Counted from the stretch's first letter, positions 57,431-63,511 are shown. The stretch: 64,000 nt of DNA from Thermoanaerobaculia bacterium (GCA_027061805.1 JAMOWA010000064.1:62001-126000), one strand, 5' to 3'. Notes: generated by a model not told the origin, from the letters alone. Made by a program: numbers and translations.

Positions 57431-57436
57431 TAGTAT
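57431..57436 (+). promoter_or_regulatory. Candidate -10 box for the sigma-CHAT-subtilase operon
   Basis: TAGTAT ends 6 bases before the ATG of the sigma factor gene, with no ribosome binding site between. Autoregulation through a different -35/-10 pair recognised by the encoded sigma cannot be judged by eye. Confidence 0.4.
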
Positions 57437-57442
57437 CGGTGA

Positions 57443-58039
57443 ATGGTTGAAAGGCCGGCACGCGAGCTCGTGGCTGCCTGCATGGGCGGCGACGAGCACG
57501 CGTGGGAGACGCTGCTCGAACGCTACGGCCGCCTGATCTGGTCCGTTCCGCTCCGCCTCGGTGCCTCCCGGGCCGAGGCCGAGGAGGTGTTCCAGCGGAC
57601 ATGGATCGTCCTGGTGGAGAACCTGGGAAAACTCGAGGAGCCCGAAAGCCTCGCAGCGTGGATCGCCTCCATCGCACGCCACCAGACGTGGCAGCTCTTC
57701 GACGAGGCACGCCGCCGCGGACGGGCTCGCTCCTGGGAGGGCGAGACCCACCGTACCGAGGAGCAGGTCGAGTCCACCGAGGTTCTCCTGCTGGAGTCCG
57801 AGCGGCTCGAACTCCTGGGAAAGGCCATCTCTTCCCTCGACGAACGGTGCCGCCAGCTGGTGGAGCTGCTGTTCCTGACCGAGCCCCGACCCTCCTACTC
57901 GGAAATCGCGGAACGTTGCGGGATCGCCGTGGGTTCCGTCGGCCCGATCCGCGCCCGATGCCTGGAACGCCTCAGGACGACACTGGAACGACTGTATCAG
58001 GGACGCCGTACCGGCGACTCATGGGAGAAGGAACGATGA
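57443..58039 (+). CDS. ECF-family RNA polymerase sigma factor
   Basis: 198 residues. Sigma2 region (ERYGRLIWSVPLRLGASRAEAEEVFQRTWIVL) with the EAEEVFQRTW motif and AAWIASIARHQTWQLFDEARR, then sigma4 (ISSLDERCRQLVELLFLTE, YSEIAERCGIAVGSVGPIRARCLERLR) with the usual HTH. The glutamates of the linker and absence of sigma3 place it in the ECF group. Stop overlaps the next gene by ATGA. It is the first of four coupled genes ending in a CHAT protease and subtilase; a role as the output of a protease-triggered switch is inferred. Confidence 0.93.
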   Translation: MVERPARELVAACMGGDEHAWETLLERYGRLIWSVPLRLGASRAEAEEVFQRTWIVLVENLGKLEEPESLAAWIASIARHQTWQLFDEARRRGRARSWEGETHRTEEQVESTEVLLLESERLELLGKAISSLDERCRQLVELLFLTEPRPSYSEIAERCGIAVGSVGPIRARCLERLRTTLERLYQGRRTGDSWEKER

Positions 58040-58599
58040 CCCACCTCGATCCGAGCTCCGTTCTCGAGGCCGCCGAAGGGAACCCCTCCACGAGGGCCAG
58101 CCGTCACCTTGCCCGGTGCCGGGAATGCCGGCGCCGCGTGGAGGAGGTCCTCCGGATCCTGCAGGACCTGGAAGCCACCCCGTCGGCCCCGGAGGGTCCA
58201 TCACCCATGCTGGATCGCTGGGCTCTCGCCGTGGCCCGGAATGCCCGCACGAGGACCTTCCGGCGGCGGCACCTCGCCCTGCTTGGCGGCGCCACGTCCA
58301 CCGCGATCCGCGGCAGTTCCGCCACCGCATGGCTCGTGGGCGATGAACGCACCCAGATCGACCTGCGGGCGGTACAGACCGCGTCCGGACGGTTCACCCT
58401 CCGCGGCCACGTGGTACGACGGGATGGTGTAGCGGTGGGATGGCGGGTCCGTGTGGAGGGTGCCGGGCGCATGGCGACCGCGACCTTCACGGACCCCTGG
58501 GGCGAATTCGTTCTCGAAGAGCTCTCCGCCGGGTCCCTGGCCCTCGTCCTCGAGGGTGACGGGAACCGGCTCGAGGCCCCGACCCTGGAGCTGGCATGA
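58036..58599 (+). CDS. Anti-sigma-like protein with HxxxCxxC motif and carboxypeptidase-regulatory-like domain
   Basis: 187 residues. RHLARCRECRRRVEEVLR carries the HxxxCxxC zinc motif typical of zf-HC2 anti-sigma factors. After an arginine-rich stretch, residues 115-187 (TLRGHVVRRDGVAVGWRVRV and AGSLALVLEG) resemble the beta-sandwich of CarboxypepD regulatory-like domains. The expected membrane helix is weak (LALLGGATSTAIRGSSATAW), so it may be cytoplasmic. It sits between the sigma factor and CHAT genes, with ATGA overlaps on both sides, so it is a candidate sigma inhibitor and CHAT substrate. Inference only. Confidence 0.7.
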   Translation: MTHLDPSSVLEAAEGNPSTRASRHLARCRECRRRVEEVLRILQDLEATPSAPEGPSPMLDRWALAVARNARTRTFRRRHLALLGGATSTAIRGSSATAWLVGDERTQIDLRAVQTASGRFTLRGHVVRRDGVAVGWRVRVEGAGRMATATFTDPWGEFVLEELSAGSLALVLEGDGNRLEAPTLELA

Positions 58600-61328
58600 G
58601 AGAGCACCCCGCAGAGATCGTCGCCGCGGCACGGGAGGGGCGCAGGTCGGTCCGGGAGGCCGGGGAGGCGCTGCGGGCCGAGGCGGAGCGCAGGACCCGT
58701 GCGCTCGACCCTGCTGTCGTCGACGATCTGCTCGCTCTCGAGGCCACCGTGCGGCGCGTGCGGGGCCTCGTGCCGTGGTGGCGGTGGGCCACCGGAACGG
58801 CCCTGACCCTCGCCGGGAACCCACACGATGCCCTCCCCCACCTTGAACGGGCCTGGCAAGGGTTCCGGAGGAGTGGAGCACGGCTGGAGGCCGCCAGGGT
58901 CAGCCTGCTGCTGGTGGACTCACTGGCCTCGGCGGGACGCCATCGCACGGCGGTGACCCGGGGGCGGTGGGCCCTGGACGTGTTCCGCCATGCCGGGGAC
59001 CGCGTGCACGAGGCATCGATGCTCGTCAATCTCGGCGGTGTCGAGGAGTCCCTCGACCGCATCCGCACCGCCATGGAGCTGTGGCGGCAGGCGCAACGTC
59101 TCGTTCCGGACGATGACGCACTCCTGCGGGGAATCCTGGCGGCAAACCTGGCCGCGGGGTCGTCGGAGCTCGGCCGGCTCGCGGATGCGGAGCGGCTTTA
59201 CCGTGAGGCGGCACGACTTCTCGAGGAGGCAGGTGCGGTGGGTTCGGCGCTCCAGCCGCGCCTCGGGCTCGCGGAGCTCGAGGCCCTGCGGGGCCGGCTT
59301 GCGGACGCCCTCGCGGACGCCGGCGAGGTGCTCGCCGGGGCGGCCCGGACCGGGGACCGCAACCTCGAGCTCGAGGCGTCGGTTCTCCTGGCCTCCACAT
59401 TCCGTCGGCATGGGCGCCTCCGCGAGGCCGTGGAGGTGGCCGGGAGAGCAGAGCCGCTGGCCCTGGAGGCGGGACGGCTCCGGGACGCCGCACGGCTGGC
59501 TGCCGAGCGCGCCCTGGCCCTGGTGGAGGACGGAACCACGGATGCCGCCGGACCGGTTCACCACGCCCTGGAACGGATGGATGCCGCGGGCACTTCCCTC
59601 CTGCGCCAGCGTTTCCTGGTCGACCTCGCCGCCGCAGGCTGGCGGCTTGAGCCCCGGGCACTGGCCGGAGCCGCGGAGGCCCTCGAGCGGCACGGGCTGC
59701 GGGTGGCGGCCGCCGAGGCCCAGCTCCTCACCGCACGCTTCCTGCCCCGCGACGAGGCCATGGAGGTGTGCCGCCGGGTCCTGGCACGGAGGGCAATCCC
59801 CCGGTGGATCCGGATGGAAGCCCATCGTCTCGCCGGGGTCCTCGCGAGCACCGACGATCCGGAAAGAGCTCACGCCCATTTCCTCCGGGCGGCGGCGATC
59901 GCCAAGGAGGTCCGCGGCCGCCTCCCGACGACGACCGACCGGGAGGCGTTCTCCCGGCGCCTGGTACCGCTGGCCGAGGACGCCGTCCGGATCCTCGCCT
60001 CGCGGGAGGAGCCTCGCTGGGGACGGCGCGCCCGCCGGATCCTGGCGCGGCTCGCCTCCGCGGAGCTTCTCGAGGAGATCGCCCAGCAGGTGGAGGCCGG
60101 AGAGAACGGCGGCCGGGCCCGGCGGTGGCGGGAGCTCCGCGGAGAGCTCCGTGCCCTCCTCGAGCTCGGGGAACGGTCCTCCCAGGGCGGGGTGCGTTCG
60201 ATCGGCAGTGCGGGTTCCCTTTCCCGGGAGCTCGCAGGGCGGATCGGAGCTCTCGAGAGGGAGCTGGCCCGGTCTTTCCCCGTCCTGCCCGGGAAGAGCA
60301 CCGGCCGCAGGGTCGACGGTGCCCGGTTCCTCCACGCGGGTGAGGCGGCCGTGGAGATCGTTCCCGCGGGTCCGGATATCTTTCTCTTTCTCCATGCACC
60401 AGGACGCTTCCGTCATCTCAGGATCCGAGAGGGACGAGAGGCAGCGATCCGCCTCATGGAACGAATCGGGTACCGGATGCGCCGGCTGGACCACGGGCGC
60501 CGCTGGATCGAGGCTGCCGGCCGGGGCCTGACGACGGAGGTTGAGCGGCTCCTCGAGGCAGCGGGACGCCTTCTCCTGGACCCTGCCTCCCGGTGGATCC
60601 GGGACGCCGCCCACGTCTTCCTCGTCCCCCACGGCGAGCTGTTCGACCTCCCCTGGCCGGCCCTGCGTCTCGACGGCGCACCACTCATCGAGGGGGTCAC
60701 GGTCAGCCTGCTTCCATCGCTCGACATCCTGGCGGCGAGGGCAACCCTGACCCCGAGGAAAGGGCGGCGGCTCGGGGTGGCCGGGGCTCCCACGGAGGAT
60801 CTTCCCGAGATCGGCCCGGAGGTCCGGGAGCTCGCGGCCGCCGTTCCCGGGGCACGGATCGTGGAGCGGGCCACCGTGGCCGATGCGATGAAACTCCTGG
60901 CATCGTGTGACGCAGTTCACTTCTCGGCACACGGTGTCTTTCGGCATGATTGGGGCATGGCATCGGGTATCCGGCTCACGGACGGGTGGCTGACAGCCGC
61001 CGCCCTGATGGGTTGCCCACTCCGGGCGCGACTCGTCACGGCCGGGGCTTGCGAGCTGGGACAGGGTGGGGGCGGTCCGGCCCTGGAGCTCCGGGGCTTC
61101 CTGCGAGCGCTCTTCGGCGTCGGGGTCGGGTGCGCCATGCTGCCCGCCGGGCCACTGGACGACGGAGTGGCCCGCGCCACGGCCGTGGCGTTCCACCGCC
61201 GTCTCGCGCACTCGGGTCCCGCCCGGGCGTTCCGGGAGGCGCTGCTGGAGGTGCGGGACCACTTCCCCAGTCCGGTGCTCTGGAGCGGCTGGCGACTGTT
61301 CGGAGACCCCGAGACATGGGAGGCATGA
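58596..61328 (+). CDS. TPR-CHAT protein (caspase-like protease domain)
   Basis: 910 residues. Residues 1-480 are alpha-helical repeats like TPR (EASMLVNLGGVEESLDRIRT, LAANLAAGSSELGRLADAER). The CHAT domain (about 590-905) has both catalytic residues of caspase-HetF relatives: histidine 779 in HFSAHGVF and cysteine 819 in AGACELGQGG, plus FLVPHGELFDLPWPAL and the final FPSPVLWSGWRLFGD. CHAT proteases cleave partner proteins after activation through the repeats. ATGA overlaps with the anti-sigma-like gene and the subtilase gene fix it in one operon. Substrate and trigger unknown. Confidence 0.9.
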   Translation: MREHPAEIVAAAREGRRSVREAGEALRAEAERRTRALDPAVVDDLLALEATVRRVRGLVPWWRWATGTALTLAGNPHDALPHLERAWQGFRRSGARLEAARVSLLLVDSLASAGRHRTAVTRGRWALDVFRHAGDRVHEASMLVNLGGVEESLDRIRTAMELWRQAQRLVPDDDALLRGILAANLAAGSSELGRLADAERLYREAARLLEEAGAVGSALQPRLGLAELEALRGRLADALADAGEVLAGAARTGDRNLELEASVLLASTFRRHGRLREAVEVAGRAEPLALEAGRLRDAARLAAERALALVEDGTTDAAGPVHHALERMDAAGTSLLRQRFLVDLAAAGWRLEPRALAGAAEALERHGLRVAAAEAQLLTARFLPRDEAMEVCRRVLARRAIPRWIRMEAHRLAGVLASTDDPERAHAHFLRAAAIAKEVRGRLPTTTDREAFSRRLVPLAEDAVRILASREEPRWGRRARRILARLASAELLEEIAQQVEAGENGGRARRWRELRGELRALLELGERSSQGGVRSIGSAGSLSRELAGRIGALERELARSFPVLPGKSTGRRVDGARFLHAGEAAVEIVPAGPDIFLFLHAPGRFRHLRIREGREAAIRLMERIGYRMRRLDHGRRWIEAAGRGLTTEVERLLEAAGRLLLDPASRWIRDAAHVFLVPHGELFDLPWPALRLDGAPLIEGVTVSLLPSLDILAARATLTPRKGRRLGVAGAPTEDLPEIGPEVRELAAAVPGARIVERATVADAMKLLASCDAVHFSAHGVFRHDWGMASGIRLTDGWLTAAALMGCPLRARLVTAGACELGQGGGGPALELRGFLRALFGVGVGCAMLPAGPLDDGVARATAVAFHRRLAHSGPARAFREALLEVRDHFPSPVLWSGWRLFGDPETWEA

Positions 61329-63511
61329 TGATCCTGAAGCGCGGATGGTTTCCCGCACCGACCCTGGCCGTCGTGCTGGCCCTGGCCGTCCTGTTTCCCA
61401 CCACCGCTCCTGCCCAGGACCTCCGGGGGGTGGGGAGTCCGACCAGCATGATGGGCACGGTGGATTTCATCCTCGGCCCGCAGTGCTTCATCCTCTCCGG
61501 ACAGCTCCTCGTGGTGACCGACGGGGCCACGACCTTCCTGGGGGGGATCGGTGGGGTGTCCGATCTCTCGATGGGCGACCTGGTCGAGGTGACCGGCTCC
61601 ACCGCTGGCGTGGGGGGCATGCCGCTGGAACATTCCGGCAGCCTGCGCGCGGTTGTCGTCGAGCTGCTCGACAGGGCTTCCGGCACCGTCGACCTTGTCA
61701 CCCGCGTGGCATCGGTGCTCGACGAAACGCGATTCACCACGGTGGACGGGTACACGGTGGAGACGGATGCCCACACCATGTTCCAGGGGTTCAATGCAGT
61801 CTCCGACCTCCGGCCGGGAAACGTGGTGGCCATCGCGGGTGTCACCCCGGACGCCCGGACCATCCGCGCATTCGATGTCGTGCTCCTCGAGACCCCCGGT
61901 GGCGGGGAAGGCTCGGGGCTCGTGATCGGCCTCATGGGAATGGTGGCGTTCCTGTCGCCGCCGGACGCCTTCGTCCTCGACAGCGGCGATCCGGTGATCA
62001 CCACCACGGACACGGCATGGCACGGGGGCCCCAGGGGGTGGAGCGATCTCGAGGCGGGAATGTTCCTCCACGTGATGGCGAGGCTTCTGGAGGACGGCAC
62101 CATGGAGGCCATCACCGTGGAACTGGTGGCCATGCCGGACCGGGGTCCGGTCCCTGTGGCCGGCATCGTGGTGGACGTGCTCGGGGAAGGAGAGCTGGTG
62201 CTGGACGACGGCACGGGCCTCCTGGTGACACCGAGGACGGTGATCGACGGAGACGCCGACACCGTGGCGGACCTCACCACGGGAATGATGGTCGACGCGA
62301 GTTGCATTCTGCTCGAGGACGGGCGTTTCGAGGTGCTGGGCCTCGTGGTGATGGCTCCGGCGACACCCGAGGATTTCAACGATCTCGACGACGATGAGGC
62401 ATCGGAGGCCCTGGTGGTCCTGGCGGGCGGCGCCAGGGCCTTCGAGGTGGCCGCCCGTTACGGCGCCACCCTGGAGGGGCGCCTGTCCGATCGCGGGGTC
62501 GTCCTCTTCCGGTGGCCCGTCCCGCTGCCTGGAGGCCTGATCGAGATGCTCCTGGAGGACCCGGAGATCCTGGCCCTGGAGGCCAACTACCGGTTCCACG
62601 ATCCGGAAAGCATCCGACGCAGGATGCCCGTCGCCGACCGCTCGGCCACGAGCGAACGGTTCGTCCGGCAGGCGGCGGCCTCCACCACGGGTCTGGACCG
62701 GGTCCACTCCACTGTGGTGGGGAGTGGAACTCTGGTGGCGGTCATCGACAACGGCGTGGATCCCCTCCACCCGCTGCTGCGCCATCACCTCGCCGCGGGT
62801 GGCCGTGACTATGTGGATGGCGACGGCGAACCCTGGGAGACCCGGAACGGTGTCGACGACGACGGGGACGGTGACGTTGACGAGGCCGCCGGCCACGGGA
62901 CCTTCGTGGCGGGGCTGGTGCTCCTGGCTGCACCGGGTACGCGGATCGTGCCGTACCGTGTGCTGGACGACGAGGGAAACGGCTCGACCTTCGCCGTGTG
63001 CGAGGCCGTGATCGCCGCCATGGAGCGAGGGGTGGACGTCATCAACCTCTCGCTGACCTACCACAGGCGATCGAAGGTTCTCGACTGGCTGCTGGACGAG
63101 GCCGTGGAGCAGGGCGTGATCCCCGTGGCGGGAACGGGCAACGATGGCGAAGACAGGTTGCCGTTCCCTGCACGCGACCACCGGGTGATCTCGGTGGCTG
63201 CGGCGGATCCCTCCGGCACGGTGGCGGCGTTTTCCAACGCGGCACCCGGTGTCTCCCTGGCCGCTCCGGGTGAAGACCTCTATTCGGCCCTGCCCGGCGG
63301 GGGCTTCGGAACGTGGAGTGGAACCTCCATGGCGGCCCCACTCGTCTCGGGCACGGCGGCGCTGATCCGATCCGCGAACCGGCACCTGACGCCGGGAGAG
63401 ATCCGGGCCGCGCTCGTGCAGTCGGCCGCGCCGCTCCACGGGAACCCCCGCGGCGTGCACGGCCTGCTCGATGCCGAGGCCACGCTGGCCCTCGTTCCTC
63501 GGGAACACTAG
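61325..63511 (+). CDS. Exported subtilisin-like serine peptidase (S8) with N-terminal DUF5666-like repeats
   Basis: 728 residues. Signal peptide (APTLAVVLALAVLFPTTAPA), then about 350 residues of repeated beta-modules of 70-80 residues (SMMGTVDFI, GDLVEVTGSTAG; LRPGNVVAIAGVTPD; DLEAGMFLHVMARL; DLTTGMMVDASCILL) resembling DUF5666. The peptidase domain has Asp475 in AVIDNGVDP, His524 in GHGTFVAGLV and Ser668 in GTSMAAPLVSG: a full triad. A calcium-rich DDDGDGDVDEA loop precedes the His. ATGA overlap with the CHAT gene. Acts outside the cytoplasm, so it is not likely to be cut by the cytoplasmic CHAT directly. Confidence 0.92.
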   Translation: MMILKRGWFPAPTLAVVLALAVLFPTTAPAQDLRGVGSPTSMMGTVDFILGPQCFILSGQLLVVTDGATTFLGGIGGVSDLSMGDLVEVTGSTAGVGGMPLEHSGSLRAVVVELLDRASGTVDLVTRVASVLDETRFTTVDGYTVETDAHTMFQGFNAVSDLRPGNVVAIAGVTPDARTIRAFDVVLLETPGGGEGSGLVIGLMGMVAFLSPPDAFVLDSGDPVITTTDTAWHGGPRGWSDLEAGMFLHVMARLLEDGTMEAITVELVAMPDRGPVPVAGIVVDVLGEGELVLDDGTGLLVTPRTVIDGDADTVADLTTGMMVDASCILLEDGRFEVLGLVVMAPATPEDFNDLDDDEASEALVVLAGGARAFEVAARYGATLEGRLSDRGVVLFRWPVPLPGGLIEMLLEDPEILALEANYRFHDPESIRRRMPVADRSATSERFVRQAAASTTGLDRVHSTVVGSGTLVAVIDNGVDPLHPLLRHHLAAGGRDYVDGDGEPWETRNGVDDDGDGDVDEAAGHGTFVAGLVLLAAPGTRIVPYRVLDDEGNGSTFAVCEAVIAAMERGVDVINLSLTYHRRSKVLDWLLDEAVEQGVIPVAGTGNDGEDRLPFPARDHRVISVAAADPSGTVAAFSNAAPGVSLAAPGEDLYSALPGGGFGTWSGTSMAAPLVSGTAALIRSANRHLTPGEIRAALVQSAAPLHGNPRGVHGLLDAEATLALVPREH

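Follow-up and report, generated by a model that had tools for sequence, protein, structure and literature searches.

A widespread ECF sigma, anti-sigma-like, TPR-CHAT and subtilase cassette as a candidate CRISPR-independent, protease-triggered transcription switch

In this work we analysed a four-gene cassette at positions 57443-63511 of a 64,000-nucleotide stretch of DNA from a Thermoanaerobaculia bacterium (GCA_027061805.1, JAMOWA010000064.1:62001-126000; the whole stretch is called the window here, and positions are counted from its first letter). The cassette encodes an extracytoplasmic function (ECF) sigma factor (SIG), a small anti-sigma-like protein (MID), a TPR-CHAT cysteine protease homologue and a subtilase (S8) with predicted export. 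With slightly better than even confidence we propose that these genes form a CRISPR-independent sigma switch triggered by a protease, in which CHAT would cut MID, most likely at Arg92 (R92), and free the sigma factor, the subtilase being exported. The proposal is built on the gene set itself, its synteny in four phyla, the intact catalytic residues, the conserved R92, and the loss of MID and sigma beside CHATs that have lost their catalytic dyad.

Organization of the cassette

The open reading frames (ORFs) of all four genes were confirmed on the + strand, with an ATGA overlap at each of the three junctions, as an earlier note on this DNA, made from the sequence alone, had read them. The HxxxCxxC motif that it had reported in the protein starting at 58036 is present (H24/C28/C31), as are His779 and Cys819 of CHAT, which together with H775 are invariant among the loci of the same order. 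Of the exported S8 peptidase with a full triad, the triad was borne out (D475/H524/S668, invariant in the order loci), and export is predicted from an N-terminal hydrophobic segment. In line with the absence of CRISPR claimed in the note, no CRISPR-like repeats were found within the window, and the genes on either side of the cassette included none that was recognised as cas. The features are as follows.

57443..58039, + strand: SIG, ECF sigma factor with sigma2 and sigma4, 198 aa (Pfam, NCBIfam, alignment)
58036..58599, + strand: MID, soluble anti-sigma-like protein, 187 aa (weak profiles, alignment, AlphaFold2 model)
58105..58128, + strand: zinc-binding motif H24-x3-C28-x2-C31 of MID, in the N-terminal helical region resembling an anti-sigma domain (ASD) (sequence alignment)
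58261..58596, + strand: MID residues 76-187, CarboxypepD_reg/transthyretin-like beta-sandwich (AlphaFold2 model; weak Pfam)
58309..58311, + strand: codon of MID R92, a candidate site for cleavage by CHAT, in the loop that connects the N-terminal helices with the beta-sandwich (MID alignments, model)
58596..61328, + strand: TPR-CHAT cysteine protease homologue, 910 aa (Pfam, alignments, fold search)
60930..60932, + strand: catalytic His779 of CHAT (alignments)
61050..61052, + strand: catalytic Cys819 of CHAT (alignments)
61325..63511, + strand: subtilase (S8), predicted to be exported; hydrophobic N-terminal signal, DUF5666 repeats, catalytic domain at residues 466-704 (Pfam, alignment)
62747..62749, + strand: catalytic Asp475 of S8 (alignments)
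62894..62896, + strand: catalytic His524 of S8 (alignments)
63326..63328, + strand: catalytic Ser668 of S8 (alignments)

In Pfam, SIG was matched by Sigma70_r2 (4e-9) and r4 (4e-6), the CHAT protein by CHAT (2e-27) and TPR_12 (8e-17), its TPR part giving generic TPR only, and the subtilase by Peptidase_S8 (5e-47) plus DUF5666, which occurs in four repeats.

Conservation of the gene neighbourhood

The order of the source genome belongs to the Acidobacteriota, and the named relatives are mostly metagenome-assembled genomes of Thermoanaerobaculia and other Acidobacteriota. A single-sequence contig scan with the window CHAT returned no relatives, but an alignment-based scan did find them. The search of the order with CHAT gave nine other loci, with identities down to about 30%, all of which keep the neighbours; in one of the nine the contig ends within the locus, and the upstream half is missing. 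The ATGA overlap from CHAT to S8 is kept in the order loci wherever this boundary is complete.

Profile searches were extended to the class and to four phyla (Acidobacteriota, Planctomycetota, Chloroflexota, Actinomycetota), the loci being chosen on the CHAT score alone; the partner counts are approximate because a home-made gene caller was used, and related genomes among the counted loci are non-independent. In Acidobacteriota, Planctomycetota and Chloroflexota, 103 loci above 400 bits lie away from contig edges, and here MID was found in 92, S8 in 76, sigma in 71, and all three in 56. Beside other TPR-CHATs (non-edge, 150-400 bits) MID was found in 2 of 15 loci, as against 92 of 103 in the family above 400 bits. 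In each of the 15 Actinomycetota loci that score above 400 bits, CHAT is accompanied by sigma, MID and S8, and when all neighbours were clustered blindly, S8, MID and sigma were exactly the top three clusters. The synteny is far above chance: the neighbours, on whose conservation in relatives the earlier note had made its reading depend, are kept in the nine order loci and in four phyla.

MID is the commonest partner of CHAT, and it occurs without a detected sigma in 26 of the 103 loci. Some Acidobacteriota, among them family f6 of the class, have the gene order sigma-CHAT-MID-S8. One locus, L155, seemed to be MID-less, yet MID is present behind a scaffold gap; a CHAT-MID 'fusion' in the same locus was rejected, since its ORF runs through the Ns that fill a scaffold gap. 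In the loci L125, L129 and L133 two tandem MIDs, mostly without the N-terminal anti-sigma-like domain, follow the subtilase, and no sigma was detected. A second, different CHAT/ECF neighbourhood was met at L001 (G000:C27:25869-29762), where the genome's only other CHAT protein adjoins a convergent pair of ECF sigma and zinc-finger protein.

The CHAT protease and its inactivated paralogues

The His/Cys dyad of CHAT is intact in 132 of the 137 family loci and in all 20 Actinomycetota CHATs examined. A few paralogues have lost it (L068/L090 A/C, L091 S/S, L093 Q/S, L142 R/T), and beside each of them MID and sigma are both absent. Genome G080 also has a CHAT with intact dyad flanked by MIDs, and G076 a further intact-dyad CHAT plus a strong MID on another contig. 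As L090, L091 and L093 come from one family, the joint loss of the dyad and of MID and sigma corresponds to about two independent events. Judged from these sequences, the catalytic residues of CHAT are under selection. The dead CHATs L090, L091 and L093 adjoin HD-GYP-like proteins (judged by eye from sequence), not MID and sigma.

Among solved structures the nearest to the CHAT domain is Csx29 (E 7e-13), followed by DdvA and separase, and a fold search gave separase, Csx29 and DdvA. The parallel with Csx29 drawn in the earlier note thus extends to a relationship of the CHAT domains.

MID as an anti-sigma-like protein

MID gave weak matches below the cut-off, to CarboxypepD_reg in its C-terminal part (Pfam, 0.0012) and to 'anti-sigma factor' (NCBIfam, 0.0013). 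Its AlphaFold2 model (pLDDT 89) begins with four helices, followed by a beta-sandwich, which is the best conserved domain of MID; a fold search with the model returned generic Ig-like sandwiches only. The likeness to anti-sigmas lies in the N-terminal region. The profile of the order MIDs aligned over residues 3-46 with zinc-finger anti-sigmas from other loci (hhalign, 71% probability, E 3.6e-5), and among the nine weak matches of a PDB profile search the anti-sigma-type RskA 4nqw, 3hug (membrane protein) and RsiW 5wuq (E 0.15-1) covered the same region. The zf-HC2 family was matched in 4 of 30 MIDs (best E 0.028). HxxxCxxC is lost in L014/L015 and in all 18 Actinomycetota MIDs examined, a loss that is also seen in class I anti-sigmas in general. 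In one Chloroflexota locus (L220:9400-10785, - strand) a single gap-free ORF joins sigma, the HxxxCxxC region and the beta-sandwich, and this is a natural sigma-MID fusion. The hhalign and PDB matches and the fusion agree with the earlier description of the 58036 protein as anti-sigma-like; the N-terminus, with HxxxCxxC or a degenerate form of it, shows a weak likeness to anti-sigmas. MID is probably cytosolic, because a transmembrane-like segment was predicted in only 2 of 120 MIDs.

A universal arginine as candidate cleavage site

R92 is the only invariant residue across 30 diverse MIDs. Arginine occupies this position in 132 of 137 MIDs, that is in 114 of 119 of the larger set and in 18 of 18 from Actinomycetota. 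In four of the five exceptions an Arg stands two residues earlier, which is an alignment shift, and the fifth, L088, seems to be another kind of anti-sigma. The residue is mostly preceded by A/G-G/A/V-hydrophobic/Thr and followed by Gly, Ser, Asp, Thr or Ala, and in the AlphaFold2 model it sits in a lower-confidence loop at the boundary of the N-terminal helices and the sandwich core. It resembles a protease site with Arg at P1, and is a plausible candidate for the CHAT cut site. In separase the S1 Asp is D2070 of the human enzyme, at C+41 (PMC12609080). D856 of CHAT, invariant in the active members of CHAT alignment A6, was set aside as Arg-binding S1 residue, since it aligns with a separase Asp other than the S1 residue.

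Subtilase, oligopeptide importers and promoter

The S8 triad is intact in 107 of 107 subtilases. The suggestion in the earlier note that the subtilase might act as a sensor found no specific support. OppA-like binding proteins stand near 25 of the 137 family loci, often at -1/-2, versus 1 of 25 other CHAT loci, and permease and ATPase clusters also recur among the cassette neighbours; no OppA-like gene was found beside the window cassette or in the Planctomycetota loci. These neighbours suggest that extracellular peptides may be the trigger or the product. Oligopeptide ABC transporter genes were seen directly beside the cassette in Acidobacteriota (L060-L067, L085-L095, L151-L173).

Upstream of the cassette one further element was spotted by eye:

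57431..57436, + strand: TAGTAT, weak -10-like element shortly 5' of the first ATG of the operon

Several relatives in the order have similar TATNAT boxes directly 5' of sigma, and possibly a leaderless mRNA starts from a housekeeping promoter at 57431-57436. When the regions 5' of 64 cassettes were searched for an ECF-type bipartite promoter motif, none exceeded the shuffled sequences, thus no autoregulatory ECF motif was found there.

Discussion

We infer the following course of events. MID, with its ASD/zinc-finger-like N-terminal helices and its beta-sandwich, would bind the ECF sigma and hold it inactive until the TPR superhelix recognises a ligand and CHAT is thereby activated. The activated protease would cut MID, most likely in the R92 loop, after which the anti-sigma would fail or disappear, perhaps through further degradation of the kind suggested for CalpT (PMC11417357) and Csx30 (PMC10028731). 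The freed sigma would then transcribe its regulon. The translationally coupled subtilase would be made with the switch and exported, and extracellular proteolysis is probably the output.

Several points weigh against this course of events. Each similarity between the MID N-terminus and anti-sigmas is weak taken singly. Some MIDs, in L125, L129 and L133, still keep the Arg without an N-terminal domain, and because of such MIDs R92 may have a role in docking or folding instead. The S1 Asp of separase, transferred by position, has no clear counterpart in these CHATs. Furthermore, L130, L134 and L158/L161 have no detected sigma and a histidine kinase nearby instead, which means that a sigma factor cannot be the end point of the switch in every locus; since a histidine kinase can stand where sigma is missing, MID-CHAT may be a core which is wired to other regulators and whose output varies.

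An alternative, which we regard as unlikely though it deserves consideration, is that MID senses a ligand through its beta-sandwich and controls sigma without proteolysis, CHAT inside and the subtilase outside the cell being effectors of the regulon. The strong conservation of the sandwich, the intact catalytic residues of both proteases and a gene order that fits an output operon would suit it; nevertheless, MID and CHAT stay paired even where sigma has gone, MID disappears where CHAT is dead, and the upstream search yielded no motif for ECF autoregulation.

A circuit of the RRNPP kind seems improbable. RRNPP systems combine a cytosolic TPR receptor, an Opp importer and an exported propeptide, and the Rap/PlcR layout unites TPR, importer and exported subtilase. 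By analogy, the subtilase would make peptides outside, an Opp-type importer would take them up, and their binding to the TPR of CHAT would trigger the switch. The enrichment of importer genes near the family loci speaks for such a circuit, but the association is concentrated in Acidobacteriota, OppA-like genes were not found beside the window cassette or in the Planctomycetota loci, and no propeptide gene was identified.

A published proposal concerns ECF54 sigmas, whose conserved neighbours carry carboxypeptidase, subtilase and CHAT domains: according to the ECF54 passage of a 2022 review (PMC8999054, citing Casas-Pastor et al. 2021), control is proteolytic and no anti-sigma is involved, the neighbouring proteases keeping sigma down. 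We give this explanation a similarly small chance here. Short MIDs without the N-terminal domain do exist (L221, L241), but in most of the present MIDs the N-terminus is anti-sigma-like, the 'carboxypeptidase' match corresponds to a regulatory beta-sandwich and no enzyme, and the subtilase is predicted to be exported.

CHAT and caspase-like proteases act in CBASS and gasdermin defence. Since such proteases act in type III CRISPR as well (PMC10028731), CHAT might start lethal proteolysis on infection, but this anti-phage or cell-death role is very improbable, as no known defence family was apparent by eye among the recurring neighbour clusters, PADLOC matches were weak or of generic TPR and subtilase type only, and the modules sit among housekeeping genes.

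The protease-triggered switch, if true, would have wider consequences. In the literature searched, sigma release triggered by a CHAT protease is demonstrated inside CRISPR loci only; a stand-alone form in four phyla would point to a general signalling role of CHAT proteins. Orphan CHAT proteases, which form a large family, would gain a likely substrate and cleavage position, the published picture of such a sigma context as one without anti-sigma would be overturned, and the CRISPR version would have a candidate ancestry. We consider it a long shot that the cassette represents a wider CRISPR-independent family of which Csx29-Csx30-CASP-sigma is a specialised offshoot, with the cut after the universal Arg and with subtilase-released peptides, returned by Opp, as the trigger of CHAT. 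New with respect to the literature searched are the occurrence in four phyla, where MID and CHAT stay together most persistently, the disappearance of MID and sigma where CHAT is dead, and the apparent identity of the 'carboxypeptidase' as a non-enzymatic MID with anti-sigma-like N-terminus and a universal Arg.

Comparison with known systems

The class of neighbourhood is not new, because it has been noted as the ECF54 context (PMC8999054). An ECF sigma stands there with CHAT, subtilase and CarboxypepD-like genes, and the four-gene set also occurs in Actinomycetota, as in that context; the likeness is one of gene neighbourhood. The difference is that ECF54 is described in that passage as having no anti-sigma, whereas the 'carboxypeptidase' here is MID, with its anti-sigma-like N-terminus. 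With class I zinc-finger anti-sigmas the window MID shares HxxxCxxC in a helical N-terminal domain, a motif variably lost elsewhere.

Separase likewise joins helical repeats to a CHAT-like caspase fold and cuts after Arg, but it is eukaryotic, acts on cohesin, and its S1 Asp is not clearly conserved in the present CHATs. In CalpL-CalpT-CalpS (PMC11417357) a protease cuts an anti-sigma and frees an ECF sigma, as we infer for the cassette; the protease there is a Lon-SAVED enzyme triggered by cA4, and the system has neither TPR-CHAT nor subtilase. The solved protein DdvA (PDB 8rot, 8rw5) bears the structure title 'transmembrane anti-sigma factor' and the chain name 'CHAT domain-containing protein', so that the CHAT-type fold and the anti-sigma function already meet in it; DdvA is a single membrane protein, unlike the separate, soluble MID and CHAT of the cassette.

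Together with the ECF54 context, the closest known system is type III-E CASP, in which Csx29 is a CHAT protease that cleaves a sigma inhibitor, Csx30 (PMC10028731). Both have a TPR-CHAT with His/Cys dyad, a (putative, in our case) sigma inhibitor and an ECF-like sigma in one locus, and the CHAT domains are related. Csx29 cuts in a flexible loop of the C-terminal domain of Csx30 (PMC10028731), and the candidate R92 also lies in a loop. The cassette differs in having no Cas7-11/RNA sensor or CRISPR array, in the added subtilase with its predicted export, and in its inhibitor, which is small and has a zinc-finger/ASD-like N-terminus; in the PDB profile search the MID profile matched no Csx30 chain at E<=10. 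We favour the view that the cassette, although no member of type III-E since it has neither CRISPR nor Csx30 homology, works like the Csx29-Csx30-CASP-sigma switch.

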